Assembly (NCBI GenBank): GCA_903932145.1 | Contig: CAIZFE010000069.1 | Span: forward strand, 1-64,000 | Origin: an uncultured Rhodopila sp. | GTDB taxonomy: Bacteria > Pseudomonadota > Alphaproteobacteria > Acetobacterales > Acetobacteraceae | DNA length: 64,000 nucleotides | Direction of reading: 5' to 3' | Part shown: piece after piece, positions 12,511 through 39,950 of the stretch | Numbering within the stretch: position 1 is the first letter of the stretch | Layout of the letters: each line of letters starts with the position of its first letter | Made by a program: the position numbers and the translations under genes | Notes under the pieces: generated by a model | What the model saw: only the letters and a program-made list of their open reading frames with translations | Databases searched by the model: none | What the model was told of the DNA's origin: nothing

Positions 12511-12530
12511 GACTCGGAAACTACTCAGAT
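12511..12530 (-). promoter_or_regulatory. FixJ-like site A, upstream of the kinase-like/hsp20/lon operon
   Basis: Read on the minus strand, the site is TCTGAGTAGTTTCCGAGTC, about 160 bp upstream of the start at 12354. It shares the core GAGTA-N-TTTCCGA with sites at 18264, 21177 and 39929. FixJ-class regulators of Rhizobia are known to bind AGTA/GTAG sequences running into TTTCC, so a NarL/FixJ-family activator is the likely ligand. Pattern is seen; ligand is inferred. Confidence 0.6.
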
Positions 12531-12620
12531 TGTGGGGTCTTTTTGTTCCCGGCTTGGCCGTCGCCGCGATCAGACCGGCACTGCGGCGCCTGATGCCGCA
12601 GACGCCGCCCGGCCAGAATG

Positions 12621-12644
12621 CCGGGCCCCGAAATGGGCCCCCGG
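12621..12644 (-). terminator. GC-rich stem-loop after the AdhP-type gene
   Basis: Downstream of the stop at 12686 on the minus strand, CCGGGGGCCC and GGGCCCGG form a strong stem around a 6-nt loop. No U-run follows, so it may act as a partial or factor-dependent terminator separating the dehydrogenase from the next operon. Confidence 0.4.
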
Positions 12645-12685
12645 ACATCAACGATTCCCAAAATGCAATTGCGGCCTGCGGGCTT

Positions 12686-13741
12686 TTAACGCTTGGACCC
12701 CACCGGAGCCGCGCCTGAAAAATCGAGGACTACCCGTGAAGGAACATCGCCATGCGCGAGGCGTTGGAACACCTCGTTGATGGCCGATAGCGGTTGCAGT
12801 TCAATATCGGCTTTAACCTTACCCTGGGCTGCGAAGCTGAGCGCCTCCGCCATGTCCTCGCGGTTGCCGACGAATGATCCGCGGACGGTGATGCAGTTGG
12901 CGACAACATCGAACAGCGGCAAGGGGAAGTCGCCGGGCGGCAGTCCGACCAGCACGCACGTGCCGCGCTTGCGGGTCATCCCGACACCCTGTTTGAACGC
13001 GCCCAAAGAGGGGGCGGTGATCAGCACCCCATGGGCGCCGCCATCAGTGCCTTTCTTCACGGCCTCGATCGGGTCGCCGTTCTTCGCATTGACCACCATG
13101 TCAGCCCCCAGCTTTGTGGCGTGGGCGAGTTTGCCGTCATCGATATCAACCGCACAGACACGCAGCCCCATGGCTTTGGCATATTGAATGCCCAAATGGC
13201 CAAGGCCGCCGGCACCGGAGATAACAATCCATTCGCCCGCGCGGGCCTCGGTTTGCTTGATGCCCTTGTATGTGGTGATACCGGCGCAAATCAGCGGCGC
13301 CGCTTCCTTGGCGCCCAGGCCCTTGGGGATGTGCGCCACATAGTCCGGATCAGCAATGATATAGTCCGCGAAGCCGCCGTTCTTTGTGTAACCGCCGAAC
13401 TCTGCCTTCGCGCACACGGTTTCCCATGCCTGTAGGCAGTATTCGCAATGTCCGCACGCCGAATATAACCACGGCACGCCGACGCGGTCTCCTTCCTTCA
13501 CGGTCCTGACTCCTGCCCCGATGGCGGCGACCAGACCGATGCCCTCGTGGCCAGGGGTGAACGGTGGGTTCGGCTTCACGGGCCAGTCACCATTCGCGGC
13601 ATGGAGGTCGGTGTGGCAGACTCCGCATGCCTCGGTCTTGACCAGGATCTGTCCGGGGCCCGGCGTCGGAACATCATACTCCCGAAATTCCAGGGGCTTA
13701 CCGAACGCGACGACGACGGCAGCATGCATTTTGCGTGTCAT
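12686..13741 (-). CDS. adhP: Zinc alcohol dehydrogenase, AdhP (ethanol-active) type
   Basis: A 351-residue enzyme interconverting ethanol and acetaldehyde with NAD. Catalytic zinc ligands: Cys and Asp in ACGVCHTDLH, GHEGIG, and the later Cys in PLICAGITTYKG. The structural zinc site is CGHCEYC-(x)7-C. The Rossmann fold has ISGAGGLGHLGIQYAKAMG. Sequence and length fit AdhP. The frame is open upstream, but the start at 13741 (MTRKMHAAVV) fits the family N-terminus. It lies 41 bp after pntB and near an aldehyde dehydrogenase, so alcohol, aldehyde and transhydrogenase steps appear co-transcribed. Confidence 0.93.
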   Translation of the reverse strand: MTRKMHAAVVVAFGKPLEFREYDVPTPGPGQILVKTEACGVCHTDLHAANGDWPVKPNPPFTPGHEGIGLVAAIGAGVRTVKEGDRVGVPWLYSACGHCEYCLQAWETVCAKAEFGGYTKNGGFADYIIADPDYVAHIPKGLGAKEAAPLICAGITTYKGIKQTEARAGEWIVISGAGGLGHLGIQYAKAMGLRVCAVDIDDGKLAHATKLGADMVVNAKNGDPIEAVKKGTDGGAHGVLITAPSLGAFKQGVGMTRKRGTCVLVGLPPGDFPLPLFDVVANCITVRGSFVGNREDMAEALSFAAQGKVKADIELQPLSAINEVFQRLAHGDVPSRVVLDFSGAAPVGSKR

Positions 13742-13782
13742 GGTTGGCTGTTCCGTTCTTTGAATGAAATATATTGTTCCGG

Positions 13783-15228
13783 TCAAGCGGCGGCGGACAG
13801 ACCGAGGCCCCGGACGGCCTCGATCATTTTGACCAGAACGGCTTCGGCATCGCCGTAAACCATATCGCAATTGTCCGCGTAGAACAGCGCGTTGACGATG
13901 CCGGCATAGCCTTTGCCCTCGCCACGTTTGACGACATAGACCTGCTTTGCCTTGTCGGCATTCAGGATCGGCATGCCGAAGATCGGCGAGGACTTGTCGG
14001 TTCGCGCGGCCGGGTTCACCACGTCGTTGGCGCCGATCACCAGGGCCACATCCGTAGTGGCGAATGCATCGTTGATGTCTTCCAGTTGGAAGATCATGTC
14101 GTACGGCACGCCGGCTTCGGCCAGCAGCACGTCCATCTGCCCGGGCATACGACCGGCCACCGGATGGATCGCAAATTTCACCGAGACACCGGATCCTTGC
14201 AGCAGCTTTACGAATTCATAAAGCTTCTGCTGGCCCTGCGCGACCGCGAGGCCATAACCCGGCACGATGATGACAGAGCCTGCGTAGCGCATGAAGATAC
14301 CGGCGTCAGCGGCCTCGGTCGGTTTCAGGCTGCCTTTGATGGCGCCCCGGGTGTGCTTCGGGGCTTCACCGAAGTTGGTGAACAGCACGTTGCTGACCGA
14401 TCGGTTCATCGCCCGTGCCATCAGCAGCGTCAGCAGCAGACCGGCAGCCCCCACCACCATGCCGGCGATCATCAGTGCCGGATTTTGCAGCGTGAAGCCC
14501 TCCAGGCCCACCGCCAGGCCGGTAAAGGCGTTGTAGATGGAGATCACGACCGGCATATCCGCGCCACCGATCGGCAGCGTCATCAGGATGCCGACGATCA
14601 GGGCGCAGGCGAAGAATACGCAAATCAGCACAGGTTCGGATGGGGTGCCGGCGGTGAGGCTGATGGCCACCAGGTATCCACCAACCGCAAGAGTCGCCAG
14701 CATCGCGACGCCGTTGAAGATCTGCTGTCCCGGGAACCGCATGGGCCGCTTGAGTTCCCCATCCAGTTTAGCCCAGGCGATGATCGACCCCGACATCGAT
14801 ACGGCGCCAATCAAGGCACCGAGCAGGGTGACGACCAGTTGGGTTGCTCCGTGCGTCTTGTTGCCGAACAGTTCCACTGCCGCGATCGCACCGGCCGCAC
14901 CGCCGCCCATTCCGTTGTAGATGGCGACCATTTGCGGCATGGCGGTCATGGCCACGCGTTTTCCGGCCAACCAGGCAGCGCCACCACCGATGCCAAGCGC
15001 AATCACGGCCAATCCGATGTTCTGGACAAGGAACGGCCGGGCGGCGGCATCGACGTCGAACGCATAGAGGAAGCTGGCGAGGACCGCGACCAACATGCCG
15101 ATTCCAGCGACGAATATCCCCGAGGGGGCCGTCACGGGGGACGACATTCGTTTCAGCCCGTACATAAACAGGAACGCGGCGGCGAGATCGGCGGTGCCGA
15201 TCGTGAGTTGCGGAAGCATGGTCAGCAT
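13783..15228 (-). CDS. pntB: Proton-translocating NAD(P) transhydrogenase subunit beta
   Basis: A 481-residue inner-membrane protein. About nine hydrophobic segments occupy the first 270 residues, then the NADP(H)-binding domain III: IVPGYGLAVAQGQQKLYEFV, HPVAGRMPGQMDVLLAEAGV and VIGANDVVNPAARTDKSSPIFGMPIL are signature strings. Together with PntAA and PntAB it couples hydride transfer between NADH and NADP+ to proton movement. ATG 15228 has GAGGAAACC upstream and follows the PntAB stop by 10 bp; the longer frame is not needed. Confidence 0.95.
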   Translation of the reverse strand: MLTMLPQLTIGTADLAAAFLFMYGLKRMSSPVTAPSGIFVAGIGMLVAVLASFLYAFDVDAAARPFLVQNIGLAVIALGIGGGAAWLAGKRVAMTAMPQMVAIYNGMGGGAAGAIAAVELFGNKTHGATQLVVTLLGALIGAVSMSGSIIAWAKLDGELKRPMRFPGQQIFNGVAMLATLAVGGYLVAISLTAGTPSEPVLICVFFACALIVGILMTLPIGGADMPVVISIYNAFTGLAVGLEGFTLQNPALMIAGMVVGAAGLLLTLLMARAMNRSVSNVLFTNFGEAPKHTRGAIKGSLKPTEAADAGIFMRYAGSVIIVPGYGLAVAQGQQKLYEFVKLLQGSGVSVKFAIHPVAGRMPGQMDVLLAEAGVPYDMIFQLEDINDAFATTDVALVIGANDVVNPAARTDKSSPIFGMPILNADKAKQVYVVKRGEGKGYAGIVNALFYADNCDMVYGDAEAVLVKMIEAVRGLGLSAAA

Positions 15229-15238
15229 GTTGGTTTCC

Positions 15239-15562
15239 TCAATGCTTCTTTGCGTGTTTGGCATATTTGGTGTGGACGGCGACGCTGGGTTGGAACATCG
15301 CGAGCATGCGGTGCGTTACAGCATAACCGCCGGCTGCGTTGCCGGCTCCCAGCAGGACGGCAAAGAACCCGATCGCCTGTTCCAGGGTATTACTTGCGTT
15401 TAACAACGCGAACAGCCCGCCTACAACGACGATGCCATGGACGAAGTTTGACCCCGACATCAGCGGCGTATGCAGGATCGCCGGCACGCGGCCGATGATG
15501 ACCCAGCCGGTAAACGCGGCGAGCATGAAGATGGTGATGGCAACGAAACCGGTGATTTCCAT
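15239..15562 (-). CDS. pntAB: NAD(P) transhydrogenase subunit alpha 2 (membrane part)
   Basis: A 107-residue protein with three hydrophobic segments (about residues 4-24, 32-54, 60-85), containing GRVPAILHTPLMSGSNFVHGI, which is typical of the membrane part of the alpha subunit. In this organism the alpha chain is split into a soluble PntAA and a membrane PntAB, as in Rhodospirillum-type enzymes. It lies 12 bp after pntAA and 10 bp before pntB. Confidence 0.93.
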   Translation of the reverse strand: MEITGFVAITIFMLAAFTGWVIIGRVPAILHTPLMSGSNFVHGIVVVGGLFALLNASNTLEQAIGFFAVLLGAGNAAGGYAVTHRMLAMFQPSVAVHTKYAKHAKKH

Positions 15563-15574
15563 GGGCGAGACTCC

Positions 15575-16696
15575 CTACGCGGCCTTGGCGGCGGCGACGT
15601 CGTTGCAAAGCTTGCCAGCATGGGTAAGGGCCGTCTTGGCAAGGATTTCATCCTTCCAGTCGATCTCGATGATGTTGTCTTTCAGCATCAGAATGAGCAG
15701 GTTGTATTGATTCTTCGCATAGAGTTCGCTGGCATCCTGACCCAGCAGCGAGGGCACGTTCAGCGGCGCAACGATCGTTACGTGACCGACCTGCGTGGTC
15801 TCCCCGGGTTGCGTGTCCTCACAGTTGCCGCCGCCTTCGGCTGACAGATCGACGATAACCGCGCCAGCCTTCATGCCGGCGACCTGGGCTTTGCTGATCA
15901 GCTTCGGTGAGGGGCGGCCGGGAATGGCGGCGGTTGTGATGATCAGGTCGGACTGCTGAATGTGCGCGGTCAATGCAGCGCTGACCTTGGCTTTCTCCTC
16001 GGGCGTCAGTTCGCGGGCGTAGCCGCCCTTGCCGCGGGCATCGACCCCGGTCTCAACAAAGGTGGCGCCCAGCGACAGCGCCTGTTCCCGGGTTTCCGGA
16101 CGTACATCGTATCCTTCAACGACGGCGCCCAGGCGGTGGGCCGTGGCGATGGCTTCCAGGCCCGCGACCCCCAGGCCCATGACCAAAACCTTGGCGGGAC
16201 CGATGGCGCCGGCCGCGGTGGTAATCTTGGGCAGCACGCGACCTAAATGCGTCGCCCCAAGCTGAACGGCATAATACCCCGCCAGCGCCGACTGACTCGA
16301 CAATGCATCCATCGACTGCGCTCGGGTAATGCGCGGCAACGTCTCCATCGCGAAGCAGGTGATTTTCCTGTCGAGCAGACGCTGGACCAGCGGCTTATGC
16401 AGTCCGGCGTCAATGAAGGAAATCAGGATCGCGCCTTCTTTCATGGCGTCGATCGCCTCCAACGCCGGTGGCTGCACGGCCAGCACCACGTCCGCGTCCG
16501 CCAGCATCGCGCGGCGGTCGGACATGAAGGCAACGTCCCTGAATGCACTGTCGGGTAGCTTGCTGGCGTCGCCGGCGCCAGTTTGCATATGCAGACGGGC
16601 ACCCAACTTAACCAACTTCGGCACCACGGACGGGACCAGCGCCACCCGCCGTTCATGCGGCTGGGTTTCCTTCAGAACAGCGACATTCACAAACAT
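15575..16696 (-). CDS. pntAA: NAD(P) transhydrogenase subunit alpha 1 (NAD-binding)
   Basis: A 373-residue soluble subunit, domain I of transhydrogenase, related to alanine dehydrogenase. Seen: KETQPHERRVALVPSVVPKLVKLGA at the N-terminus, AKVLVMGLGVAGLEAIATAHRLGA as the NAD-binding GxGxxG, a mobile-loop-like GKGGYARELTPEE and SAEGGGNCEDTQPG near 285. It binds NAD(H) and passes hydride to the NADP(H) domain of PntB. First of the three pnt genes, 78 bp after the aldehyde dehydrogenase gene, so possibly on that transcript. Confidence 0.94.
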   Translation of the reverse strand: MFVNVAVLKETQPHERRVALVPSVVPKLVKLGARLHMQTGAGDASKLPDSAFRDVAFMSDRRAMLADADVVLAVQPPALEAIDAMKEGAILISFIDAGLHKPLVQRLLDRKITCFAMETLPRITRAQSMDALSSQSALAGYYAVQLGATHLGRVLPKITTAAGAIGPAKVLVMGLGVAGLEAIATAHRLGAVVEGYDVRPETREQALSLGATFVETGVDARGKGGYARELTPEEKAKVSAALTAHIQQSDLIITTAAIPGRPSPKLISKAQVAGMKAGAVIVDLSAEGGGNCEDTQPGETTQVGHVTIVAPLNVPSLLGQDASELYAKNQYNLLILMLKDNIIEIDWKDEILAKTALTHAGKLCNDVAAAKAA

Positions 16697-16774
16697 GGAG
16701 GGCTCCGGCTTATGTCCAGGGGCGCGGGACGTGACGGCTGCGGCGAGGAGATCCCGATGCCGCAGCCGCGTGCA

Positions 16775-18157
16775 TCAGACCGGCGCTTCGGCCACCAAGG
16801 TGCGAACCAGTTTCTTGTTCACGAACTGCTGGATTCCCATGTCGCCCAGTTCGCGCCCATAGCCAGAGTCCTTGATGCCGCCAAACGGCAGTTCGGCGTC
16901 GGACCAGGAGATGTTGTTGATGAACATCATACCGGTTTCGACACGGCTTGCCACGCGCCTGCCGCGGACGGTGTCCTTAGTGAAGACCGACCCGCCCAGG
17001 CCGAAATCGGAGTCGTTGGCCAGCGCAATCGCCGCGTCCTCATCCTTGACACGGAAGAACATCGCGACCGGGCCAAAAAATTCGTCACGAAAGGCGGGAT
17101 TTTCCGGTTTCACGTCAGTCATGATCGTCGGTTGCATGAACGCCCCCGGACGATCGATCCGTTTGCCGCCCATAATGATCTTCGCACCGTGCGAGACCGC
17201 TGAGTCGACTTGCGCAAGAAGCTGAACCAGGGCCGATTCCGTGGACAACGGGCCCAACGTCGTGTTTTCGTCCATCGGATCGCCGGCCTTTAGCGCGCTC
17301 AGCGCCGCCTGGAATTTCTGCAGAAATTTGTCGGCTATCGACTCAACAACGATAAAGCGCTTGGCGGCACAGCAGGTTTGGCCGGCATTGTACATCCGTC
17401 CCCAAACCGCCCATTTGATGGTGTGTTCCAGGTCGGCGTCTTCAAGCACGATGAACGCGTCGCTGCCACCGAGTTCCATGGAGGACGGTTTCAGGTTCTG
17501 CCCGGCCCTTGCGGCGATGCTGCGGCCGGCCGCCACGCTACCGGTCAGGGCGACACCCTTGACGCGCGGATCGTCGATGACCTGGTTCGATTGGTCATGT
17601 GAGATCAACAGGTTGGTATAAAGACCGGCCGGTGCGCCGGCATCGAGCCAGAGCTTTTCGAAGGCGATGGCGCATTGCGGGACGCAGCCGGCGTGTTTCA
17701 CCACCAGGACGTTGCCTGCCATCAGGTGCGGGCCGGCGACGCGGGCCAACTGATAGAACGGGAAGTTCCACGGCTCCACACCGAAGATCACGCCGATCGG
17801 GCTGCTCTCCATGTGGGCTTCGCCCAATGTCGGATGCAGTTCCAAATTCTTCAGGAAGCGTTCGGCGTTTTCGGCGTAATAGGCGAGAATCTGCGAACTG
17901 AACTCGACCTCGCCGCGCGCCTCGCTGATCCGCTTGCCCATTTCCCGGGTTTCGATCTGGGCGAAATTCTCCGCTTCATCGTGCAGAAGCGCGGCCGCCT
18001 TGGCGACGATGGCGCGCCGGTGGGCGTAGCTGGTGTGCTTCCAGGTTTCGTAGCAGGAACTGGCGATGACCATCTTCGCCTCAAGCTGTTTGTCGGTGAT
18101 GGTTTCGAATGATTTGTCACGCTTGTTATCGAATGGGTTCACGCTCTCGTAGGCCAT
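16775..18157 (-). CDS. NAD(P)-dependent aldehyde dehydrogenase, succinate-semialdehyde dehydrogenase-like
   Basis: A 460-residue cytosolic enzyme oxidising an aldehyde to the acid. Catalytic residues: Glu in SSMELGGSDAFIVLEDAD (near 235) and Cys in MYNAGQTCCAAKRFIVVE (near 270). NAD binding: VEPWNFPFYQLAR and the GVALTGSVAAGR turn. The closest familiar relatives are GabD/Sad-like semialdehyde dehydrogenases of 455-460 residues, but the substrate is not certain. It is first of an apparent operon with the pnt genes and adhP. An 8-bp inverted repeat and a FixJ-like site lie within 110 bp upstream. Confidence 0.9.
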   Translation of the reverse strand: MAYESVNPFDNKRDKSFETITDKQLEAKMVIASSCYETWKHTSYAHRRAIVAKAAALLHDEAENFAQIETREMGKRISEARGEVEFSSQILAYYAENAERFLKNLELHPTLGEAHMESSPIGVIFGVEPWNFPFYQLARVAGPHLMAGNVLVVKHAGCVPQCAIAFEKLWLDAGAPAGLYTNLLISHDQSNQVIDDPRVKGVALTGSVAAGRSIAARAGQNLKPSSMELGGSDAFIVLEDADLEHTIKWAVWGRMYNAGQTCCAAKRFIVVESIADKFLQKFQAALSALKAGDPMDENTTLGPLSTESALVQLLAQVDSAVSHGAKIIMGGKRIDRPGAFMQPTIMTDVKPENPAFRDEFFGPVAMFFRVKDEDAAIALANDSDFGLGGSVFTKDTVRGRRVASRVETGMMFINNISWSDAELPFGGIKDSGYGRELGDMGIQQFVNKKLVRTLVAEAPV

Positions 18158-18202
18158 GATTTGTCCTTTTATTTCGTAGATGCATGAAAAATTATGCCTT
18201 AC

Positions 18203-18225
18203 TGAAATAATTTCTGATTATTTCA
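18203..18225. promoter_or_regulatory. Perfect 8-bp inverted repeat upstream of the aldehyde dehydrogenase
   Basis: TGAAATAA at 18203-18210 and TTATTTCA at 18218-18225 flank 7 bases, 46-68 bp upstream of the start at 18157. AT-rich in a GC-rich region. It overlaps where the core promoter should be and could be an operator. Confidence 0.45.
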
Positions 18226-18263
18226 ATGGACTTTACAATATAGGGATCGCGATTAGCGGATAG

Positions 18264-18284
18264 GGTCGGAATCTACTCAAAGGG
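18264..18284 (-). promoter_or_regulatory. FixJ-like site D, upstream of the aldehyde dehydrogenase/pnt/adhP run
   Basis: On the minus strand: CTTTGAGTAGATTCCGACC, 106 bp upstream of the start at 18157. One base differs from the TTTCCGA core of sites A, B and C. Same orientation relative to the downstream gene as those sites. Confidence 0.55.
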
Positions 18285-18465
18285 TCGTTTTAACACATTC
18301 GGGGAAGTTGCTCGCCCGCGAGCCGGCCGACGATACGGCCGCCGCCAAATGATATCGTAAAAAAACGAAATATTGTTTGTGCTGAATGGCCCGTCCGATC
18401 AATGCCGCATCACGGCCTAAGGGATGGGCACGCATGGCGGCCAGGGTGGCGTTCCGGACTTGCCA

Positions 18466-21084
18466 TCAGGCGCGTCCCGATCGTCGTCCGGTCATGTATC
18501 GGTAAAACAAGACCTTGGTGACTTCGACAAGCCCAAGATACGCTGTTGTCGCGCCAACCAGGAAAACGAAGAACAATGGCGGGGGCGCCACAAACCCGAA
18601 CCAGCGCCCCGCGGGGACAAGCGGCAGAACGATCGCGAGAGCAACCGCGCCAAGATTCATCGCGATCAGGAACCAGCACGGGTTGCTGCGGTAAAACCGG
18701 CGCCGTGTCCGGATGCAGAAGACCACGAGCGTTTGCGTTGTCATCGATTCGATAAACCACCCTGTCTGGAACAGAGCCTCTCCCGCGCCAAAGAAAACCA
18801 GCATAGCGTAAAACGTGACGAAGTCGAAGATGGAGCTGACCGGGCCGAATACCAGCATGAAGCGCTCAATCAGCTTGATGTCCCATTTGACGGGACCAAG
18901 GACAACCTCGGGGTCGACGTCATCGAACGGGATCGCGATTTCCGAAACATTGTAGATCAGGTTGTTCAGCAGGATCTGAATCGGTAGCATCGGCAGAAAG
19001 GGCAGGATCAGCGTGGCACCCGCCATGCTGAACATGTTGCCGAAGTTGGAACTGGCACCCATCAGCACGTATTTTGAAACGTTCTGGACCGTGGCACGGC
19101 CGGCGACCACCGCGTCCCGCACCACTGACAGATCGTGCTCCAGCAATATCAAATCGGCCGCCGCCCGGGCCACATCGGCGGCGCCATCAACCGAAATCCC
19201 AACGTCGGCGGCGTGCAGCGCGGGTGCGTCGTTGATCCCGTCCCCCATGAATCCGACGACATGGCCAAGCCGCTTCAGCGCCAGCAGGACCCGATGTTTC
19301 TGCTGCGGATTGACCCGGCAGAACAGGTTGACGCTGGACAACTGCCCGATCAGCGCCTCTTCCGATAGGGTTTCCATCGCGTCGCCGGTCAGTACGCCGG
19401 TTACCGGCACGCCGATTTCCGTAAAGACGTGCCGGGATACCAGTTCGTTGTCGCCAGTCAGCACCTTCACCGTGATACCGGCCGCAGCCATCGCCCGGAT
19501 CGTTTCACCGGCGCTGGCTTTCGGCGGATCCAGGAATACCGCGAAGCCGGCAAACACCAGATCGGTTTCATCGGTGATCACGGCGGTATCATAATGCGCC
19601 GTTTCGGGTGTCAAATCAGCCAGCCGGCTGGCAATCCCCAACGCTCGGAATCCCTGCGCCCCCAGTCCGTCGAGCGTCGCCTGAAACACCGCACGCGTAG
19701 TCGGATCGAGTCCCTTCACCGCACCATCGGCGTCCTGATATTGCTTCGACAGCCGCAGCAGATCCTCTGGCGCCCCCTTGACGAACAACCCGCGTTTCGT
19801 TCCGTGTTCAACCAGAACCGAAACCCGGCGGCGCCCGAAGTCGAAGGGTGCTTCATCGATTTTCGTAAAGCCGGTCATATCAAACGGCTGGGCGGCCAAG
19901 ATTGCCTCGTCCAGCGGGCTTTTCATCCCCGTTTCGAACTTGCTGTTGACGTAAGCATAGGAAAACGCGTTCGCGCTGTCGGCGCCATGGCCATCGATCG
20001 TGCGCAACAGCTTGATTTTCGCTTCCGTCAATGTGCCGGTCTTGTCGGTGCACAACACGTCCATGGCGCCCAGATCGTGGATCGCGGACAGACGCTTTAC
20101 GATCACCTTGCGTTTCGCCATCTGCATCGCCGACCGAGCTAACGTTACCGTAACGATCATCGGTAGCAATTCAGGTGTCAGACCGACCGCGAGTGCGACC
20201 GCGAACATCAGCGATTGAAGCATCGGGCGAGCGAAGAATATGTTCACGACCAGAACGAAAAGTACCATGAGAATGGTGAAGCGCATGATCAGCATGCCGA
20301 AGCGGCGAATGCCGACGGTGAAGGCGGTGGCCGGCGGCTTTTCGGACAGGCTGGTGGCGAGGTGGCCGAGGGCCGTTCTGTTTCCGGTTCGGCAGATCAG
20401 GATGGTAGCGGTGCCGCTGATAACGGACGTGCCGGCGAACACCGCGTTGGACGCCCCCGCTGGGTTTTCCGCGCCGGATGCGGCATCACTGACCTGCTTT
20501 TCGGCGGGATACGGCTCCCCCGTCAACAGCGCCTGGTTGACGTAGAGATCCCGGCTTTCCAGCAGCCGAGCGTCGGCGGGGACAAGATCGCCTGCAATCA
20601 GTTCGACAATATCGCCCGGAACCAGTGCGTGGAGGGGCACCGAAACACGGGTGCCATCGCGTCTGACGGTCGCCTGTACGGCCACCGACTGGCGTAGCGC
20701 CTCCACCGCGTTCTGCGCCCGCACTTCCTGGACGAAGTCGAAGATAATGCTGAGCAAAACGATGCAAACGATAATGACAAAGCTTGCCACGTCGCCTGTC
20801 GCCGCGGACACCGCGCTCGCGATCAGAAGGATTATGATCAAGGGGTTGCCGAACCGCGTAAGGAACTGAAGCCAAAGCGGCGAATGCTTCACGGTCGCAG
20901 CGTCGTTGGCACCATACCGCGCCAGCCGCGACCGCACCTCCGCCGTTCCAAGCCCGGTGATTTTCGCGTTCAACATCACGAGCAACTGGTCAACCGGTTC
21001 CTGCCAGACCTGTTCCCGCTCCGGTTCGCCTGTCGAAAGACGTGCCGCAATGTGAGTATGCACGAAGCCGGAATTGTCATTCAT
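18466..21084 (-). CDS. mgtA: P-type ATPase of the MgtA (magnesium-import) type
   Basis: An 872-residue inner-membrane ATPase. Actuator motif LLTGEPYPAEK (TGEP for the usual TGES), phosphorylation motif CTDKTGTLTEAKI, hinge MGDGINDAPALHAADVGISV, and the membrane segment AVALAVGLTPELLPMIVTVTLARSAM, which is typical of MgtA/MgtB. It would import Mg2+ against its own expected gradient; transport direction is from family knowledge. The frame is open to 21171, but ATG 21084 gives the family-like N-terminus MNDNSGFVHTH. A FixJ-like site lies about 95 bp upstream. I see no MgtA-type riboswitch leader in the short gap. Confidence 0.88.
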   Translation of the reverse strand: MNDNSGFVHTHIAARLSTGEPEREQVWQEPVDQLLVMLNAKITGLGTAEVRSRLARYGANDAATVKHSPLWLQFLTRFGNPLIIILLIASAVSAATGDVASFVIIVCIVLLSIIFDFVQEVRAQNAVEALRQSVAVQATVRRDGTRVSVPLHALVPGDIVELIAGDLVPADARLLESRDLYVNQALLTGEPYPAEKQVSDAASGAENPAGASNAVFAGTSVISGTATILICRTGNRTALGHLATSLSEKPPATAFTVGIRRFGMLIMRFTILMVLFVLVVNIFFARPMLQSLMFAVALAVGLTPELLPMIVTVTLARSAMQMAKRKVIVKRLSAIHDLGAMDVLCTDKTGTLTEAKIKLLRTIDGHGADSANAFSYAYVNSKFETGMKSPLDEAILAAQPFDMTGFTKIDEAPFDFGRRRVSVLVEHGTKRGLFVKGAPEDLLRLSKQYQDADGAVKGLDPTTRAVFQATLDGLGAQGFRALGIASRLADLTPETAHYDTAVITDETDLVFAGFAVFLDPPKASAGETIRAMAAAGITVKVLTGDNELVSRHVFTEIGVPVTGVLTGDAMETLSEEALIGQLSSVNLFCRVNPQQKHRVLLALKRLGHVVGFMGDGINDAPALHAADVGISVDGAADVARAAADLILLEHDLSVVRDAVVAGRATVQNVSKYVLMGASSNFGNMFSMAGATLILPFLPMLPIQILLNNLIYNVSEIAIPFDDVDPEVVLGPVKWDIKLIERFMLVFGPVSSIFDFVTFYAMLVFFGAGEALFQTGWFIESMTTQTLVVFCIRTRRRFYRSNPCWFLIAMNLGAVALAIVLPLVPAGRWFGFVAPPPLFFVFLVGATTAYLGLVEVTKVLFYRYMTGRRSGRA

Positions 21085-21176
21085 CGCGGAAGGCCCCATT
21101 TGCGGAAGCTCGGCTTCAATTCCTGCCGACGTGCGGGAGGATGGGCGACCTAAATCGCTTAAGGCCGGCACAATAG

Positions 21177-21195
21177 CCTCGGAAATTACTCAGAC
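21177..21195 (-). promoter_or_regulatory. FixJ-like site B, upstream of mgtA
   Basis: On the minus strand: GTCTGAGTAATTTCCGAGG, about 95 bp upstream of the mgtA start at 21084 and overlapping the last codons of hypF. It matches site A at nearly every position of the core. Confidence 0.6.
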
Positions 21196-23478: not shown

Positions 23479-23821
23479 TGGCCCACCCGATGTGCCACGC
23501 CCCTTCATGAGAGACCATGTACGGCTCGACGGGCACAATTCGCCCCATCACGACGCAGGCGCCATCGCAGCCGGATGACATCTTCCCCATGTGGCGTTGC
23601 ACGTCTTCAATGTGGTTGGAAAACCGTACGCGGGCGTCACCTGCTGCCCAATGTGCCTTCAAAGCGAACCCCGAGGTCGGGATGGTTCCGATGCCATGCC
23701 AAGCTGCGTCGATGTGCACGAACTGGTCGCGGAGGTAAGCTTGCGCCTGCTGGTTGTCGGCGGGCCGCACAAATGGCGGATAGCTGTCGTCGAGGAACGG
23801 CGACTCAGGTCGAACTGACAT
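23438..23821 (-). CDS. Hypothetical protein overlapping hypF
   Basis: A 127-residue protein if it starts at ATG 23821 (MSVRPESPFLDDSYPPF); the frame is open to 23899. No domain recognised. It has a SGCDGACVV segment with two cysteines, followed by GRIVPVEPY and several His and Trp residues (AWHGIG, EGAWHIGW), which might bind metal. It overlaps the start of hypF by 17-41 bp, so translation is probably coupled. That could mean a helper role with HypF, but this is inference. A weak FixJ-like site lies 105 bp upstream. Confidence 0.5.
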   Translation of the reverse strand: MSVRPESPFLDDSYPPFVRPADNQQAQAYLRDQFVHIDAAWHGIGTIPTSGFALKAHWAAGDARVRFSNHIEDVQRHMGKMSSGCDGACVVMGRIVPVEPYMVSHEGAWHIGWANGQRAGAAYAAGE

Positions 23822-23926
23822 CTCGATGCACACCTTTGGCTTGGCAACCATTGAGGAGAGGCCTGTCACACTGGCGACGCGCATCGGATAAGCGAGCAAT
23901 ATGCATCCGTCAGCAATATTATCGAT

Positions 23927-23944
23927 GGGAAATTACGCTTGAGA
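23927..23944 (-). promoter_or_regulatory. Weak FixJ-like site E, upstream of the small gene and hypF
   Basis: On the minus strand: TCTCAAGCGTAATTTCCC, 105 bp upstream of 23821. It keeps GTAATTTCC but not the GAGTA...CGA of the stronger sites. Included because of position and orientation. Confidence 0.35.
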
Positions 23945-27658: not shown

Positions 27659-27659
27659 C

Positions 27660-29510: not shown

Positions 29511-29527
29511 CCGCCTGCCTCTTGCGA

Positions 29528-30532: not shown

Positions 30533-30610
30533 GATGTTTCCTCCGATCCGATATGGTCTCGCCGGCCTGCGTTTGGCTTGCGACCGGATGGGCCGGCGTG
30601 TTACCGGTTT

Positions 30611-30622
30611 CTAGTCGACTAG
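30611..30622. promoter_or_regulatory. Perfect 12-bp palindrome in the divergent uxu/TRAP promoter
   Basis: CTAGTCGACTAG, with the heptamer TAGTCGA repeated directly at 30612 and 30619. It lies between the divergent binding-protein gene (start 30532) and uxuB (start 30666). The GT...AC centre fits GntR-family sites. Likely operator of the GntR protein at 26987-27658. Confidence 0.6.
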
Positions 30623-30665
30623 TCGATCAGTTTGTGCGGGGAAAATTCAAAATGGGACTCTTGGC

Positions 30666-33322: not shown

Positions 33323-33403
33323 CGGCAGCCGCATGATAAAATTGTCCTGACCGCTTCAGCGCCAGTCCCGGTTATTGGGCGGTAAGCGGCCGGTCTCCTC
33401 TCC

Positions 33404-36400
33404 TTAGGCCGGGTGAAACCGGCTGCCGTCCCGGCTGGCCAGTTCCTCATATTGCCGATACTTTTCCGTAACGACATCTTGTGCCATGGTCAGAAGCGTT
33501 TCCGCCTCCTCCGGCCGCGTGCTTGCCAGGGAACTGTAGCGCAACTCGTTATAGGCATAGCTCTTCAGGGGAATACGCGGACGTGGGGAGTCGAGCCGGA
33601 ATGGGTTTTCGCCGACCGTGCGCATCATCGGATTGAAACGGAACAGCGGCCAGTAGCCGCTGGCGGTCGCCAAATCCTGCTGCTTCATCCCGAAGCGCAT
33701 GTCGATACCATGGGCGATACAATGGCTGTATGCCAGGATCAGCGAGGGGCCGTTATACGCCTCGGCCTCACGAAATGCCTGTAAGGTATGTTGCGGGTTT
33801 GCGCCCATTGCGACCTGTGCCACATAGACGTTGCCATAGGCGATCGCCTGCATAGCCAGATCCTTCCGCGCGGTCCGCTTTCCAGACGCGGCGAACTTGG
33901 CCACGGCGCCCAGTGGCGTTGCCTTGGACGCCTGGCCGCCGGTGTTCGAATAAACCTCTGTATCGAGCACCAACACATTCACATCGTGCGCGGTCGCAAG
34001 CACATGATCCAAGCCGCCGAAGCCGATATCGTAGGCCCAGCCGTCACCACCAACGATCCAGATGCTACGGCGAACCAGGTGATCGACAACCGACAACAGA
34101 TCCAGCGCCAGCGGTTCCCGCATTCCCAGCAGCCTTGTCTTCAACTGCGCCACGCGTATCCGTTGCGCGCGAATATCAGACTCCTTGATCTGCGGCGCCT
34201 TGGCAATGGAATCGGCCAAATCAGCCCCGACCTTGTCCGCCAGGCGGGAGAGCAACGACAATGCCAGCGAAAGATGCTTGTCGGCGGCCAGCCGAAAGCC
34301 GAGACCGAACTCCGCATTGTCCTCGAACAGCGAATTTGACCAGGCGGGCCCTCGGCCTTCGGCGTTCTTGGTCCAGGGCGTGACGGGCAGGTTGCCGCCG
34401 TAGATCGACGAACAACCCGTGGCGTTGGCCACCTGCAACCGATCCCCGAACAACTGGCTCAACAGCTTAAGGTACGGCGTTTCGCCGCAGCCGCCGCATG
34501 CGCCGGAGAACTCAAACAACGGCTCCAGAAACTGCACACCGCGAACATCGGCGAAGTCCACGCGGGCGCGATCGTTGACCGGCAGGGTTTCGAAGAACGC
34601 GATGTTAGCGCGTTCGTCCGCCAGGATCGGCGCCTTGTCTTCCATGTTGAGGGCTTTGACCTCGTGTTCCCTGGGGCTGATCGCCGGGCAGGCTTCGATG
34701 CACAAGCCGCATCCGGTGCAATCCTCGACGTAGAACTGCAGGGTGAAGCGCGCTTCGGGGTAGCCCCGCGCATTGACCGGAGCGGATTTGAAGGTTGCCG
34801 GGGCGCCCGTCAGTTTGTCTTCGTTGTAGTATTTGGCACGAATGACACTGTGCGGACAAACGAAGCTGCATTGCCCGCATTGGATGCAGAGGTCTTCCCG
34901 CCACACCGGCACGATATCGGAGATGTTGCGCTTTTCAAACGCTGACGTGCCGGATGGAAATGTGCCGTCGGCCGGGATCAGGCTGACGGGCAACTCGTCC
35001 CCGAGCCCGGCGAAAATCCGAGCGGTCACGTCACGGACAAACGCGGGCGCATTGTCTGGAACCAACATCTGCATATCGATCCGGCTGGTGACAGCCACCG
35101 GGACCGGTATTTCGTTCAACCGAGCCAGCGTGCCATCGACCGCCGCAAAATTCTTATCGACGACCTCCTGGCCCTTGCGCTCGTAGGACTTGCGGATGGC
35201 CTCCTTGATGTGACCGATCGCTTTCTCGCGCGGCAACACGCCGGATATCGCGAAGAAGCAGGTTTGCAACACGGTGTTTGTCCGTGAACCCAGACCAACC
35301 TCACGGGCCACCGAACCGGCGTCGATGACGAACAGACGCAGCTTCTTGTCGATAATCGTCTGCTGCACAGGACGCGGCAGACGATCCCACACCTCGGCTG
35401 TGGGATAGGGCGCGTTCAACAGCACCGTGGCCCCAACGGCGGCCACACGCAGCAAATCCTGCCGTTCCAACGCGACAAACTGATGACATGCCACGAAACT
35501 CGCCCGGGCGATCAGATATGGTGCATGGATCGGTTCCGGACCAAACCGCAAATGCGAAATCGTTTGCGCGCCGGATTTGTGCGAGTCATAAACGAAATAA
35601 CCTTGCGCGTATAGACCCGCGTCCTCGGCGATGATCTTAACGCTATTCTTGTTCGCACCAACGGTCCCGTCGGCACCCAGTCCGTAGAAAACAGCGCGCG
35701 TGACCTCGTCTTTCTCGATCATGAAGGTTTCATCGATCGGCAGACTGGTGTGGGTGACGTCGTCGTTGATCCCAAGCGTGAAGCTGCTGCGCGGTTTATC
35801 CGCCTTCAGTTCGTCGAATGCCGCCTTCGCCATCGCGGGGGTAAAGTCCTTTGACGACAGGCCGTACCGGCCGCCGATCACTCTCGGCATCGTTGCACGC
35901 TCGCCATTCGCGACAGCGCCGGCCAGGGCGGTCACGACGTCCTGGAACAGCGGTTCTCCGGTCGAACCAACCTCCTTGGTGCGGTCAAGAACGGCAATAC
36001 CGCGTACCGAATCGGGCAATGCCGCCAGCAAATGCGATACGGAAAATGGCCGATACAGGCGGACCTGCAAGACGCCGACCCTTTCGCCCTTCGCCGCCAA
36101 AACCGCCGCGGCGGATCTGGCGGTTTCGGCACCCGATCCCATCAAGATCACAACGCGTTGGGCATCCGGAGCGCCTTCGTAGTCGAACAAATGATACTGC
36201 CGCCCCGTCAGCGCCGCGAAACGGTTCATCGCACCTTCAACGATACCAGGGACTTTGGCGTAATACGGATTAACCGCTTCCCGCGCCTGAAAGAATGTAT
36301 CCGGATTCTGCGCAGTGCCTCGGATGAACGGATGTTCCGGGTTCAGCGCACGGCCACGATGGGCGCGCACCAGATCGTCGTCGATCATCGCGCGAATTTC

Positions 36401-36964
36401 GGCATCGCTCAGCAAATCCAATGTGTTCAATTCGTGCGATGTGCGAAAACCATCGAAGAAATGCACGAACGGAACACGCGCCTCCAGCGTCGCCATCTGG
36501 GCGATCAGCGCGGAGTCATGCGCATCCTGCACCGACGATGAACTGAACAGCGCGAATCCTGTGGGGCGCACTGTCATGACATCCGCATGGTCGCCAAAAA
36601 TCGACAGCGCGGAGGTTGCCAGGGATCGCGACGCCACATGAAAGACAGTGGAGGACAATTCGCCGGCGATCTTGAACATGTTGGGCAGCATCAGCATCAG
36701 GCCCTGCGACGCCGTGAATGTCGTGGTCAGCGCCCCCGATTGCAGCGCGCCATGGACCGCGCCTGCCGCCCCGCCCTCGGCCTGCATCTCTTGCACGACC
36801 GGAACGTTGCCCCAGATGTTTTGCAGACCCTGCGACATCCATTCATCGGCTGAATCGGCCATGCCGGAGGACGGGGTGATCGGGAAGATCGCGCAGACCT
36901 CATTGACGCGATACGCGACGTGCACAACGGCCGTGTTGCCGTCCATCGTGGTCCGCGTGCTCAT
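33404..36964 (-). CDS. nifJ: Pyruvate:ferredoxin (flavodoxin) oxidoreductase
   Basis: A 1186-residue fused PFOR. Domain order: pyrimidine-binding domain (MDGNTAVVHVAYRVNEVCAIFPITPSS), transketolase C-like and gamma domains, a two-cluster ferredoxin domain (CIQCGQCSFVCPHS and CTGCGLCIEACPA), then the TPP domain (FSGACGGCGETPYLK, ATGCSSIYGG, GGDGWAYDIGFGGLDH, VLDTEVYSNTGGQASKATPLG). It oxidises pyruvate to acetyl-CoA and CO2, reducing ferredoxin. ATG 36964 shares ATGA with the upstream gene's stop. Oxygen-sensitive enzyme, so expression under low oxygen is expected; a FixJ-like site precedes the operon. Confidence 0.96.
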   Translation of the reverse strand: MSTRTTMDGNTAVVHVAYRVNEVCAIFPITPSSGMADSADEWMSQGLQNIWGNVPVVQEMQAEGGAAGAVHGALQSGALTTTFTASQGLMLMLPNMFKIAGELSSTVFHVASRSLATSALSIFGDHADVMTVRPTGFALFSSSSVQDAHDSALIAQMATLEARVPFVHFFDGFRTSHELNTLDLLSDAEIRAMIDDDLVRAHRGRALNPEHPFIRGTAQNPDTFFQAREAVNPYYAKVPGIVEGAMNRFAALTGRQYHLFDYEGAPDAQRVVILMGSGAETARSAAAVLAAKGERVGVLQVRLYRPFSVSHLLAALPDSVRGIAVLDRTKEVGSTGEPLFQDVVTALAGAVANGERATMPRVIGGRYGLSSKDFTPAMAKAAFDELKADKPRSSFTLGINDDVTHTSLPIDETFMIEKDEVTRAVFYGLGADGTVGANKNSVKIIAEDAGLYAQGYFVYDSHKSGAQTISHLRFGPEPIHAPYLIARASFVACHQFVALERQDLLRVAAVGATVLLNAPYPTAEVWDRLPRPVQQTIIDKKLRLFVIDAGSVAREVGLGSRTNTVLQTCFFAISGVLPREKAIGHIKEAIRKSYERKGQEVVDKNFAAVDGTLARLNEIPVPVAVTSRIDMQMLVPDNAPAFVRDVTARIFAGLGDELPVSLIPADGTFPSGTSAFEKRNISDIVPVWREDLCIQCGQCSFVCPHSVIRAKYYNEDKLTGAPATFKSAPVNARGYPEARFTLQFYVEDCTGCGLCIEACPAISPREHEVKALNMEDKAPILADERANIAFFETLPVNDRARVDFADVRGVQFLEPLFEFSGACGGCGETPYLKLLSQLFGDRLQVANATGCSSIYGGNLPVTPWTKNAEGRGPAWSNSLFEDNAEFGLGFRLAADKHLSLALSLLSRLADKVGADLADSIAKAPQIKESDIRAQRIRVAQLKTRLLGMREPLALDLLSVVDHLVRRSIWIVGGDGWAYDIGFGGLDHVLATAHDVNVLVLDTEVYSNTGGQASKATPLGAVAKFAASGKRTARKDLAMQAIAYGNVYVAQVAMGANPQHTLQAFREAEAYNGPSLILAYSHCIAHGIDMRFGMKQQDLATASGYWPLFRFNPMMRTVGENPFRLDSPRPRIPLKSYAYNELRYSSLASTRPEEAETLLTMAQDVVTEKYRQYEELASRDGSRFHPA

Positions 36965-38592
36965 AGCGAGGCTCCCAAAGGTTCTGGTATCATTTCCATT
37001 GCGTGGCAGGGGCATTGGTCCACGCACACGGCGCAGCCGGTGCAAAGGTCCATTGCCACCCGGTAACCATGTGTCGGTCCAAGTTTGACGATGGCTGTTT
37101 CCGGGCAGGCGGCGAAGCAGTTGTCGCACTCGAAGCAATTGCCGCAGGACAGGCAGCGCTGAGCCTCAAAGCGAGCCTCCTTCGTATTGAGGCCGCTCAC
37201 AACCTCCTCGAATCCGCTTATCCGTTCGGCCGCCGCAAGTGATCGTTGCTGACGCGGATCGGCGTCGCTGTAAACCGGAAGGTGGAGCATGTCGAAGGAC
37301 ACAATTGTTGACTTCTTTGGCGCCTCATACAGCGTGCCATGCAGCCAGGCGTTGATATGCCGAGCCGCATGCTTGCCGTGGCCGACGGAAATCGTAACGG
37401 ATCGTTCGCCGGCCGTCGCGTCCCCGCCAGCGAAAATGCCCGGATGGCCGGTCATCATGTCAGGGCCGACGGTCAGCATGCCGTCGGGGCCGAAAGCAAT
37501 CCCCGGCACATGATGCAGAAAGCCGCTGTCTGTGCTCTGACCAAGCGCCAGGATGATGGCATCGGCGGTCAGAGTCTCAAACCGTCCTGTCGGTTCGGGC
37601 CGGCCGTCGGCGTTCAGTTCCATCACCTCGACAGTGAGTTCAGGCCCGACGATCTCCTTGATGGTGGTGAGCCACTTGATCTTGATGCCTTCTTCAAGCG
37701 CCTTATCGGCTTCGAACGCGCGCGCCGGCATATGTCCACGGTCGCGCCGATACACGATCAATGCCTCTTCGGCACCGAGTCGTTTCGCAGTCCTGGCGGC
37801 GTCCATGGCCGTATTGCCGCCGCCATAGATAATCACCCGGCGGCCCAGGCGCGGTGCGTCGCCGGTTTCAACGTCATGCAGCAGCGAGACCGCGTCGAGC
37901 ACGCGAACAGCATCGCGCGCCGGGATTTCGACGTGCTTGCCGACGTCCGCGCCGATTGCAACGAATGTCGCGTCGAACCTACCGGCTGTCATTTCCGCGA
38001 GCACGTCGGCGACTTTGTGATTGAGGACGATCTTCACGCCCATCGCCTCAATCCGGTGGATTTCACGCATGAGATCCTCCCGGGGCAGACGGTAGGCAGG
38101 AATGCCGAAATGCATCATGCCGCCGGCCAGCGGCCCTGCTTCGTGGATTTCCACCGCGTGCCCCATGCGGCACAGGTGATAGGCGGCCGACAGGCCCGCA
38201 GGCCCGGCACCGATCACGAGAACCCGTTTGCCGGTCGGTGCGGCTTCTATTACGAAACACCAATCTTCCTTGACAGCGAGATCGCCCAGAAAACGCTCAA
38301 CGGCGTGTACGCTGACCGAGGCGTCGAGATCGCCGCGATTGCAGGCGGTTTCGCAGGGATGATAGCAAACCCGCCCATGCACCGCCGGCATCGGATTGTC
38401 ACGGACCAAGGTCTCCCACGCTTTCCGGTAGTTGCCAGCTTGGGCGAAACCGAGCCATGCCTGGATATCCTCACCGGCCGGGCAGGCGTTATTGCACGGT
38501 GGCAACAGGTTTCGATAGATCGGCCGCTGTGTGCGGATCGACCCCGCTTCATGAAGGCGGGTCATATCCACGAGGGGACTCATGTCTTTCAT
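36961..38592 (-). CDS. FAD/NAD(P) oxidoreductase with Fe-S domains (GltD-like), probable PFOR partner
   Basis: A 543-residue protein. The N-terminal Fe-S helical domain has CNNACPAGEDIQAWL and the CYHPCETAC group, as in GltD. Then FAD binding (VLVIGAGPAGLSAAYHLCRMGH) and NAD(P) binding (RVIIYGGGNTAMDAARTAKRLG). The C-terminus adds two ferredoxin-like clusters: CLSCGNCFECDNCFAACPE and CTGCAVCVDQCPCHAME. The extra clusters separate it from ordinary glutamate synthase small subunits. Placed between an MFS gene and nifJ with ATGA overlaps on both sides, it probably moves electrons between PFOR-reduced ferredoxin and NAD(P). That role is inferred. Confidence 0.85.
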   Translation of the reverse strand: MKDMSPLVDMTRLHEAGSIRTQRPIYRNLLPPCNNACPAGEDIQAWLGFAQAGNYRKAWETLVRDNPMPAVHGRVCYHPCETACNRGDLDASVSVHAVERFLGDLAVKEDWCFVIEAAPTGKRVLVIGAGPAGLSAAYHLCRMGHAVEIHEAGPLAGGMMHFGIPAYRLPREDLMREIHRIEAMGVKIVLNHKVADVLAEMTAGRFDATFVAIGADVGKHVEIPARDAVRVLDAVSLLHDVETGDAPRLGRRVIIYGGGNTAMDAARTAKRLGAEEALIVYRRDRGHMPARAFEADKALEEGIKIKWLTTIKEIVGPELTVEVMELNADGRPEPTGRFETLTADAIILALGQSTDSGFLHHVPGIAFGPDGMLTVGPDMMTGHPGIFAGGDATAGERSVTISVGHGKHAARHINAWLHGTLYEAPKKSTIVSFDMLHLPVYSDADPRQQRSLAAAERISGFEEVVSGLNTKEARFEAQRCLSCGNCFECDNCFAACPETAIVKLGPTHGYRVAMDLCTGCAVCVDQCPCHAMEMIPEPLGASL

Positions 38593-39872
38593 GACAGTGC
38601 CTTTGCCAACAGAATGGGTCGAACAGCGGGTCGCGCCGCGGTGCCGGTTTCGCGCAGGAAACAAGCAAGAATGATCGCCAGCACGATCCCGGCGATGCCG
38701 ACCGAACTGGCATTCTGGAACACGACCAGCGTTAGTTTGCCGCCACCGGACAGACGGGTCAGCAACCAGCCATATGCAGGCGCCAACAACGCGCTGAGGG
38801 TGAAGACGAGGAAGTTGATCGCGCCTGTGGCGCTGCCTTTGACTTCGTCCGGGTTAACTTCCTTGATGATCGAATAGGGGATCATCGCCGCACCTGAACC
38901 AATGCCCAACAGCAATCCGAGCACGTAAGGAGGCATGACGCCGGGCAGGTAAACGAACGTTACGGTCGCAACCAGCATCAGCAATGACCCGCCGATCAAC
39001 ACCGGCTTGCGGCGGCCGATCCGGTCGGCAAGGTAGCCCAGCAGCGGACATCCAATCACCCAACCCAGCGGCACCATCGTCGCTCTGTTCACGGCGTCCG
39101 CGTAATCCACGCCCATGCCGTCGCGCAGGAACGGGACACCCCAGATCATGTCGCCGATCGTTGTGGGCAGGAACAAAAGGCCGGCGGAGAAGCCGCACAA
39201 CCAGGATTGCGGGTTGCTCAGCACCACGCCGTACGGTTTGAACATCGACAGCAGCGACCCACTGCTGCCGGCCGGACGTGCATCGTGACCCGACGGCGTT
39301 GCGATCAGGACCACGACCGCGACAACAGCCAATGCGATTCCCGCGAAAATCCAGAATTGTTGCCAGGTGATCAGTCCGTGGATCATGGGTCCGACGGCGA
39401 ACTGGCCGGCCGAACCGCCCAACATGCCGAAACACTGGGTGAAGCCGACGGCCGTGGCGAGCCAGGCGGACGAAAATCCGTGGCTGGCGAGGTAAACCGC
39501 ACCAGTGAACGCGAACGCGGCGCCTGCGCCTTGTAGCAGACGGCCAGCCTCGGCCCCCTCGGCGGACCCGAGGCCGAACATGACCGTGCCGATCGCGGTA
39601 ACCAGGATGCCGGTTGGTATCACGTATTTGGGACCAAGACGGTCGAGGGCGGCGCCGGCGACGATCGCGAAGGTGGAGTATGTATAGTAGTACAGGCCGA
39701 GCAGGGAGCTGACACCGAGGGTGGTCAGTCCAAAGGCGGTCGTCAGTTCGGGAACCATCACGCCCGGCGCGGAGCGGATTGCGTACTGGCCGAAATAGAA
39801 CAACAGACAGAAACCCCAGGCGATCACGTAACCTGTTTTCGCGCTCCGGGCGGCCAGGCTGCTTGCCGACAT
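38589..39872 (-). CDS. MFS transporter, first gene of the PFOR operon
   Basis: A 427-residue protein with twelve predicted helices. Signature-like loop DRLGPKYVIPTGILVTAIGTV after helix 2 and ADRIGRRKPVLIGGSLLM after helix 8. It resembles the anion:cation / OPA-like branches of the superfamily that import organic acids. Its stop TGA overlaps the next start as ATGA. Being first in an operon with PFOR suggests it brings in pyruvate or a pyruvate precursor; this is inference and untested. GGGGGA lies upstream of ATG 39872. A palindrome CGGTCGACCG (39894-39903) and a FixJ-like site precede it. Confidence 0.82.
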   Translation of the reverse strand: MSASSLAARSAKTGYVIAWGFCLLFYFGQYAIRSAPGVMVPELTTAFGLTTLGVSSLLGLYYYTYSTFAIVAGAALDRLGPKYVIPTGILVTAIGTVMFGLGSAEGAEAGRLLQGAGAAFAFTGAVYLASHGFSSAWLATAVGFTQCFGMLGGSAGQFAVGPMIHGLITWQQFWIFAGIALAVVAVVVLIATPSGHDARPAGSSGSLLSMFKPYGVVLSNPQSWLCGFSAGLLFLPTTIGDMIWGVPFLRDGMGVDYADAVNRATMVPLGWVIGCPLLGYLADRIGRRKPVLIGGSLLMLVATVTFVYLPGVMPPYVLGLLLGIGSGAAMIPYSIIKEVNPDEVKGSATGAINFLVFTLSALLAPAYGWLLTRLSGGGKLTLVVFQNASSVGIAGIVLAIILACFLRETGTAARPAVRPILLAKALS

Positions 39873-39928
39873 CGACGATTTCCCCCTTTATGTCGGTCGA
39901 CCGTAATCGACCACGTATCGCCAAGGGC

Positions 39929-39950
39929 AGACTCGGAAAATACTTAGAGG
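39929..39950 (-). promoter_or_regulatory. FixJ-like site C, upstream of the MFS/PFOR operon
   Basis: On the minus strand: CTCTAAGTATTTTCCGAGTC, 57 bp upstream of the start at 39872. The TTTCCGAGTCTG half is identical to site A at 12511. Nearest of the sites to its gene, in a position fitting a class II activator. Confidence 0.6.

Follow-up and report, generated by a model that had tools for sequence, protein, structure and literature searches.

A 64,000-nucleotide stretch of the genome of an uncultured Rhodopila sp. (C69:1-64000 of 6.66 Mb in 115 contigs; hereafter the window) carries one short sequence several times, always in the same orientation and upstream of stress and fermentation operons, which raises the question of what protein reads it. 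The initial annotation had suggested a FixJ/NarL-like site under the control of a regulator encoded elsewhere. Our analysis of these sequences indicates that the repeats are very probably operators of a FixJ-type regulator that forms the C-terminus of a hybrid kinase, an 802-amino-acid (aa) fusion protein. This assignment draws on the motif itself, on where it stands and at what spacing, on its occurrence in genomes together with the fusion, on the contrast with the site before a FixK-like gene and on the conservation of putative phosphorylation residues.

All four operators in the window are on the minus strand, and the positions first given for them (12511, 18264, 21177 and 39929) proved correct to within a few bases: AGTAGTTTCCGAGTCT at 12510..12525 and AGTAGATTCCGACCCT at 18262..18277 are exact matches to the W form of the motif, RGTANWTTCCGANNCT, which AGTAATTTCCGAGGCT at 21175..21190 and AGTATTTTCCGAGTCT at 39929..39944 match as well. 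They lie 156, 105, 91 and 57 bp, respectively, before operon starts predicted with a simple in-house gene caller, within the 57-160 bp originally described. With up to one mismatch, GAGTANTTTCCGA gave four matches in the window (vs. a shuffle mean of 0.08, maximum 1, in 100 shuffles); RGTANWTTCCGANNCT, which was refined partly from these same sites, matched the same four exactly and nothing in 100 shuffles, and the GAGTANTTTCCGA core at three mismatches was not above chance (24 in the window vs. 30 expected). We rejected the weaker fifth member claimed at 23927 (23926..23938, minus strand; GCGTAATTTCCCATCGAT), which has four mismatches to the refined consensus (counted by eye) and behind which the supposed small gene is a HypD fragment, aligning with residues 233-319 of the 351 of HypD only. 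This fragment (window 23438-23821) adjoins a second, complete hypF, and C114 carries a complete hypCABDFE set.

The operator is 18 bp long, with the refined consensus TRRGTANWTTCCGANNCT, and its sites end in CCGANNCT. Across the genome, RGTANTTTCCGANNCT has 23 exact matches (reversed-pattern control 0) and, with one mismatch, 36 (vs. 8 in the control), which bears out the genome-wide regulon implied by the initial annotation; three further sites, including the window site at 18262, match once A is allowed for T in one place (the W form), giving a total of 26. For 21 of the 26, a gene on the same strand begins within the next 200 bp, a zone that covers 9.1% of position-strand pairs (binomial p = 6e-18; the 26 sites sit in 15 genome stretches that were picked because they bear sites). 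The remaining five comprise two in long genes, one in a 55-aa open reading frame (ORF) without a family, and one each 241 bp and 352 bp upstream of a gene.

The surroundings of the motif are also constrained. A T occupies motif position -2 in 91 of 96 aligned sites (26 from Rhodopila sp. and 70 from other genomes, one of the latter from an unrelated planctomycete), and TAnnnT stands at motif offset 37-40 in 10 of the 26 and 47 of the 70, vs. control means of 0.45 and 1.53 (largest values 2 and 7) over 49 other four-offset windows. If TAnnnT is the -10 box, the motif would be centred near -42, the position of class II activators, whose geometry of an operator near -42 and a -10 box at a fixed distance these promoters would then share. 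Strict TAnnnT is present at two of the four window sites (by eye); the putative -10-like boxes, all on the minus strand, are TATTGT (18235..18240, motif offset 37-42) and TACGGT (39900..39905, offset 39-44), both counted by eye, and TTCAAT (12482..12487, offset 38-43), which lacks the A of TAnnnT and falls outside the counted matches.

Six GerE proteins are encoded in the Rhodopila sp. genome and none of them on the window's contig, in agreement with the regulator having been placed outside the window. The fusion protein reads PAS_10-HisKA-HATPase-REC-REC-GerE, and its gene (C86:212062-214467; L028:9060-11468) sits amid the densest cluster of sites, with five exact ones within 7.3 kb (210.3-217.5 kb of C86). 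It holds HisKA, HATPase, REC and DNA-binding domains and phosphorylatable His and Asp in one polypeptide, as a hybrid two-component protein does, and has no separate haem-PAS FixL partner, its kinase being part of the same protein. The recognition helix of its GerE domain, which accompanies the REC, is FixJ-like, and the best PDB match of the REC2-GerE part is FixJ (5xso, E = 3e-39). Scores against the NCBIfam FixJ equivalog (225.1 bits, cut-off 255) and the NahK/ErcS family NF041832 (358.4 and 354.1 bits, cut-off 400) stay below threshold. His225, Asp513 and Asp647 are conserved in 27 of 27 long orthologue rows (the Rhodopila sp. row included), a conservation that supports a functional kinase with two receivers. 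Within the PAS stretch 88-193, no His or Cys of the Rhodopila sp. fusion is conserved in at least 25 of the 27 rows, so that FixL-like haem sensing of oxygen by the fusion is without support. No exact or one-mismatch site is directed at the fusion gene in Rhodopila sp., and we therefore do not claim autoregulation. CheB-CheR stands in front of the fusion in a Rhodopila metagenome-assembled genome (MAG; 1463 aa) and in Telmatospirillum (1472 aa), both relatives scanned full-length, and is absent from the Rhodopila sp. fusion and the Pseudomonas abietaniphila copy (723 aa).

Among 150 genomes, all of one family and with Rhodopila sp. included (site counts by eye), a full fusion, defined as more than 200 bits plus the GerE part, is present in 12. 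Exact motif sites occur in 11 of these 12 (55 sites; reversed control 0), or in 10 of 11 when the Rhodopila sp. genome is excluded, vs. 8 of the 138 genomes without a full fusion (9 sites; reversed control 23), for a Fisher p of 6e-11 that is only indicative because the genomes are related. In genus g20, both full-fusion genomes have one site each and the other 10 genomes have none. The 12 include G132, where we dropped an apparent split into kinase and regulator genes, as both pieces end at contig ends; kinase-only paralogues in G059, G080 and G126 were counted as no fusion, and so were the copies in G092 (36% identity) and G109 (38%), the former with a single site beside its fusion-like copy. 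The stretches round four kinase-only paralogues (those of G059, G080 and G126, and a second copy in G065 that adjoins a FixJ-like regulator) contain no site with up to one mismatch, and the whole genomes of G059, G080 and G126 contain no exact site. One kinase-only paralogue of 1223 aa (L189:7846-12442) has a separate FixJ-like regulator adjoining it and no motif near.

Could the FixL-FixJ pair itself bind the sites and run a broad low-oxygen regulon, as the initial annotation implied? A candidate pair is present: the FixJ on C95 scores 296.8 bits, above the equivalog cut-off of 255, and its gene adjoins one that, judged from sequence rather than by profile scan, looks like that of a PAS histidine kinase. 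The sites published for FixJ, GTAGTTTCCC and TAAGTAATTTCCCTTA in the accessible part of PMC4999443, have GTAnTTTCC in common with the motif and match its first half, so that the operator was rightly assigned, by sequence, to the FixJ class. The classical FixJ palindrome TACGTAGTTTCCCGTA, however, occurs without a mismatch only once in the genome, 77 bp before the gene for a FixK-like protein (NCBIfam FixK is its best match, below cut-off), and it has a different 3' half; two mismatches admit six more matches (vs. 7 in the control). Moreover, when a close FixJ is defined by at least 190 bits, which 22 genomes satisfy, motif sites occur in 0 of the 17 genomes with a close FixJ and no fusion, and in 6 of the 7 fusion genomes without a close FixJ (although more remote FixJ-like proteins may be encoded there). 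The motif goes with the fusion and not with FixJ, and we regard the reading of these sites by the C95 pair as improbable.

The two operator codes in this genome share GTAnTTTCC and differ in their 3' halves, the classical CCC(G/T)TA end being absent from the motif sites. That FixJ and the fusion both bind, with a regulon joining oxygen and stress inputs, would suit the overlapping site halves and the nearly identical recognition helices (ISQRTVENHRA in the fusion vs. ISARTVEVHRA in FixJ), but it is unlikely given that the 3' halves differ cleanly within one genome and that one helix position differs as well (Asn768 vs. Val/Ile). Residue 768 of the fusion is Asn in 22 of 28 rows (Ser 3, Thr 1, Val 1, Ala 1), and the matching position of FixJ is Val in 5 of 6 rows and Ile in 1. 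The Ala fusion is that of G148, a genome with 0 exact sites, and the Val fusion that of G067, which has 1; the genomes of the Ser and Thr fusions have 1 to 3, and some Asn genomes also have only 1. We infer from these alignments that position 768 may be linked to operator specificity. A tree of fusions and FixJ proteins (8 of 38 inner branches starred, bootstrap unsettled) separates the two only loosely. With two FixJ-type operator codes in one genome, the binding specificity of the family becomes testable.

A scan of named genomes yielded 20 loci, 17 of which we took as relatives (40-73% identity over the best segment; 27-35% for the other three), from Rhodopila, Acetobacteraceae, Rhodospirillales, Parvibaculum, Telmatospirillum, Rhizobium, Rhizobiaceae, Novosphingobium, Caulobacteraceae, Xanthobacteraceae, Azospirillaceae and Pseudomonas. 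At 16 of the 17 loci, exact sites stand no more than 8 kb from the fusion gene (reversed control 0), the 17th having two one-mismatch sites, and the whole genomes of the 17 contain 110 exact sites (vs. 5 in the control), 26 of them in Telmatospirillum, with 15 on the fusion's contig; the genomes of the other three loci contain 1 site (control 1). The regulator seems to have moved together with its operator between distant bacteria. That the motif instead belongs to promoters read by an alternative sigma factor (the fixed distance to a -10 box would also suit a -35-like element), or the site of another regulator with the fusion gene merely neighbouring, is very improbable, given an 18 bp motif that resembles known FixJ sites and whose centre falls near -42, provided that the -10 box has been correctly identified, and given that 18 of the 23 sites in Rhodopila sp. 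and 11 of the 26 in Telmatospirillum lie off the fusion's contig.

Several observations weigh against assigning the operators to the fusion. The genomes in the co-occurrence set belong to one family and the pattern was built on one of them, and the eight that have sites without a full fusion carry 1 or 2 each; g4 and g5 each include one genome with a single site yet no fusion, which counts against a link of fusion and motif. Conversely, G148 has the fusion and no exact site, only one with a single mismatch beside the gene, and the fusion copy of G112, counted among the 12, carries an in-frame stop. The Pseudomonas abietaniphila copy is without a HATPase_c match, the genome of a Rhizobiaceae MAG (L128/G161) is without any exact site, and in Parvibaculum sedimenti the reversed control matches as often as the motif does (3 each). 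In Rhodopila sp. itself, 16 of the 26 sites are without strict TAnnnT at the fixed offset, and 5 overlap predicted genes: two within long genes and three more within short predicted ORFs (the 55-aa ORF holds one, and a single low-scoring ORF of 117 aa holds the other two). Finally, the Rhodopila sp. FixJ could bind the shared GTAnTTTCC half too.

With the fusion as the reader of the operators, a signal would arrive at the PAS domain (in relatives also at CheB/CheR), His225 would be phosphorylated and the phosphate would pass to Asp513 and Asp647, whereupon the GerE domain would bind TRRGTANWTTCCGANNCT, centred at about -42, and bring RNA polymerase to a promoter that carries a -10 box; the result would be the joint induction of stress-tolerance and fermentative/hydrogenase operons, including the four in the window. 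The parts of this scheme that we infer are the direct contact with the operator, the sign of regulation (activation, not repression), the sequence of phosphotransfer steps and the input signal. Direct phosphotransfer from REC1 to REC2 would be unusual. A PAS hybrid kinase with an Hpt domain is encoded behind a motif site on C55 (L069:5117-7933), and one may speculate that it serves the fusion as a relay partner.

In Rhodopila sp., the predicted operator precedes about two dozen stress and low-oxygen operons. Their first genes include MgtA, Aldedh, MFS-PFOR (PFOR, pyruvate:ferredoxin oxidoreductase) and the Hsp20-Lon operon in the window; HycI, and HypC followed by hypA, B, D, F and E, for NiFe-hydrogenase maturation; DUF3141, Band-7, BON, CsbD, PRC, DUF3309, YflT, LTXXQ, OmpA and WXXGXW; and an HlyD/ABC exporter, PgaA and the PAS hybrid kinase with Hpt. 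Also among the targets, at 352 bp from its site, is a single-domain response regulator, and three target genes (L034:5600-5890, L069:4680-4886 and L072:6382-6516) have no family above cut-off. By function, the targets are a mixture of genes for general and envelope stress, fermentation, hydrogenase and biofilm. At L028:11487-11530, ahead of a small ORF and a single-domain response regulator, an exact site is preceded at about 28 bp by a second copy with two mismatches. Telmatospirillum targets include YflT, OEP, BON, MFS, CsbD, acetate kinase, PRC, GGDEF-EAL, OmpA, a cation P-ATPase, cupin, LemA, PPK2, DUF3775, EncFtn, HAD, transketolase, MlaC, Ysc84, LTXXQ and DUF3309, with two of one set of twenty scanned first genes lacking a family. 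The target families common to both genomes suggest that general/envelope stress forms the shared core of the predicted regulon, and the anaerobic operons look like an addition to it. Some targets would suit the hypoxia regulon envisaged at the outset, namely PFOR, alcohol dehydrogenase, hydrogenase/hyp and the Telmatospirillum acetate kinase, but many (BON, CsbD, PRC, DUF3309, YflT, OmpA, LTXXQ) are of the general or envelope stress kind.

We consider it reasonably likely that these parts make up a horizontally spread module, in which one protein acts as sensor, phosphorelay and transcription factor (CheB-CheR-PAS-HK-REC-REC-GerE, HK being the histidine kinase), has its own operator code (set apart from that of FixJ by the 3' half-site and one helix position) and, across many Alphaproteobacteria as well as in a Pseudomonas, governs a general/envelope stress regulon, plus lineage-specific anaerobic operons (PFOR, hydrogenase, fermentation). 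It would do so in parallel to the EcfG-PhyR response. If this is true, the fused CheB/CheR would couple the control of gene expression to protein methylation, an input lost in the Rhodopila sp. lineage. The regulator-operator pair predicts co-switched operons across a broad set of bacteria, and the predicted targets include families of unknown function (DUF3309, DUF3141, DUF3775, BON, CsbD, PRC, YflT).

Hybrid two-component systems of Bacteroides combine a kinase, a receiver and a fused AraC DNA-binding domain in one polypeptide. The fusion likewise has kinase, receiver and DNA-binding domain in one chain, but with a LuxR/FixJ-type output and PAS and CheB-CheR input, and its domain content suggests a cytosolic protein. 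With NahK/ErcS-type hybrid kinases it shares the HisKA-HATPase-REC core (358 bits); unlike them, it stays under the cut-off of 400 and adds a second REC and GerE and, in relatives, CheB-CheR. The low-oxygen-activated (lxa) locus of Burkholderia cenocepacia is reported to be a cluster of stress, chaperone and fermentation genes that are induced together, a likeness in gene content. Burkholderia FixLJ has reportedly been the subject of a published study. FixJ of the rhizobial FixLJ system is alike in its REC-GerE output and GTAnTTTCC half site (PMC4999443, accessible part; PDB 5xso), whereas here the kinase is fused to the regulator, GANNCT replaces the CCCTTA end and the score is below the equivalog cut-off. 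The predicted regulon also differs in size, with 26 sites here vs. the FixJ targets named in the accessible part of PMC4999443, which are four genes in Rhizobiales and a single one in Caulobacterales. The main text of PMC4603805, as far as it was accessible, contains neither FixJ nor GTAA. Among the matches listed in our literature search, which left most subscription journals outside, there was no description of the fusion with the motif, and a search by the motif letters listed no match that concerned bacterial FixJ-type regulation by its title or the start of its abstract.

The genes behind the four window operators, all on the minus strand, were identified with Pfam and NCBIfam, which upheld the operon contents first described, HypF included; the exception is the first gene behind 12510..12525, previously called kinase-like, whose 298-aa product (11458..12354) has only a weak HATPase_c-like C-terminus (E = 0.0022; 18.9 bits, cut-off 26.4). 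The operator at 18262..18277 precedes an aldehyde dehydrogenase (Aldedh; 16775..18157), a three-gene pyridine nucleotide transhydrogenase (PntA, Pnt-4TM and PntB; 13783..16696) and an alcohol dehydrogenase (12686..13741). Next, the operator at 21175..21190, which starts on the final base of the hypF stop codon, precedes an MgtA-like magnesium-translocating P-type ATPase (18466..21084; TIGR01524, 865.6 bits, cut-off 610.75), and the one at 39929..39944 precedes an MFS transporter (38589..39872), a GltD-like Fe-S flavoprotein oxidoreductase (Pyr_redox with 4Fe-4S; 36961..38592) and the PFOR NifJ (33404..36964). Behind the 298-aa protein, the operon continues with Hsp20 (11063..11452), Lon protease (8721..11063), a zinc-type alcohol dehydrogenase (7729..8715) and an MscS-type channel (6667..7680), and a luciferase-like monooxygenase belongs to the same run. 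Just past this run lies a phage-type integrase (window 3415-4647), possibly marking the edge of an island near the Lon operon.

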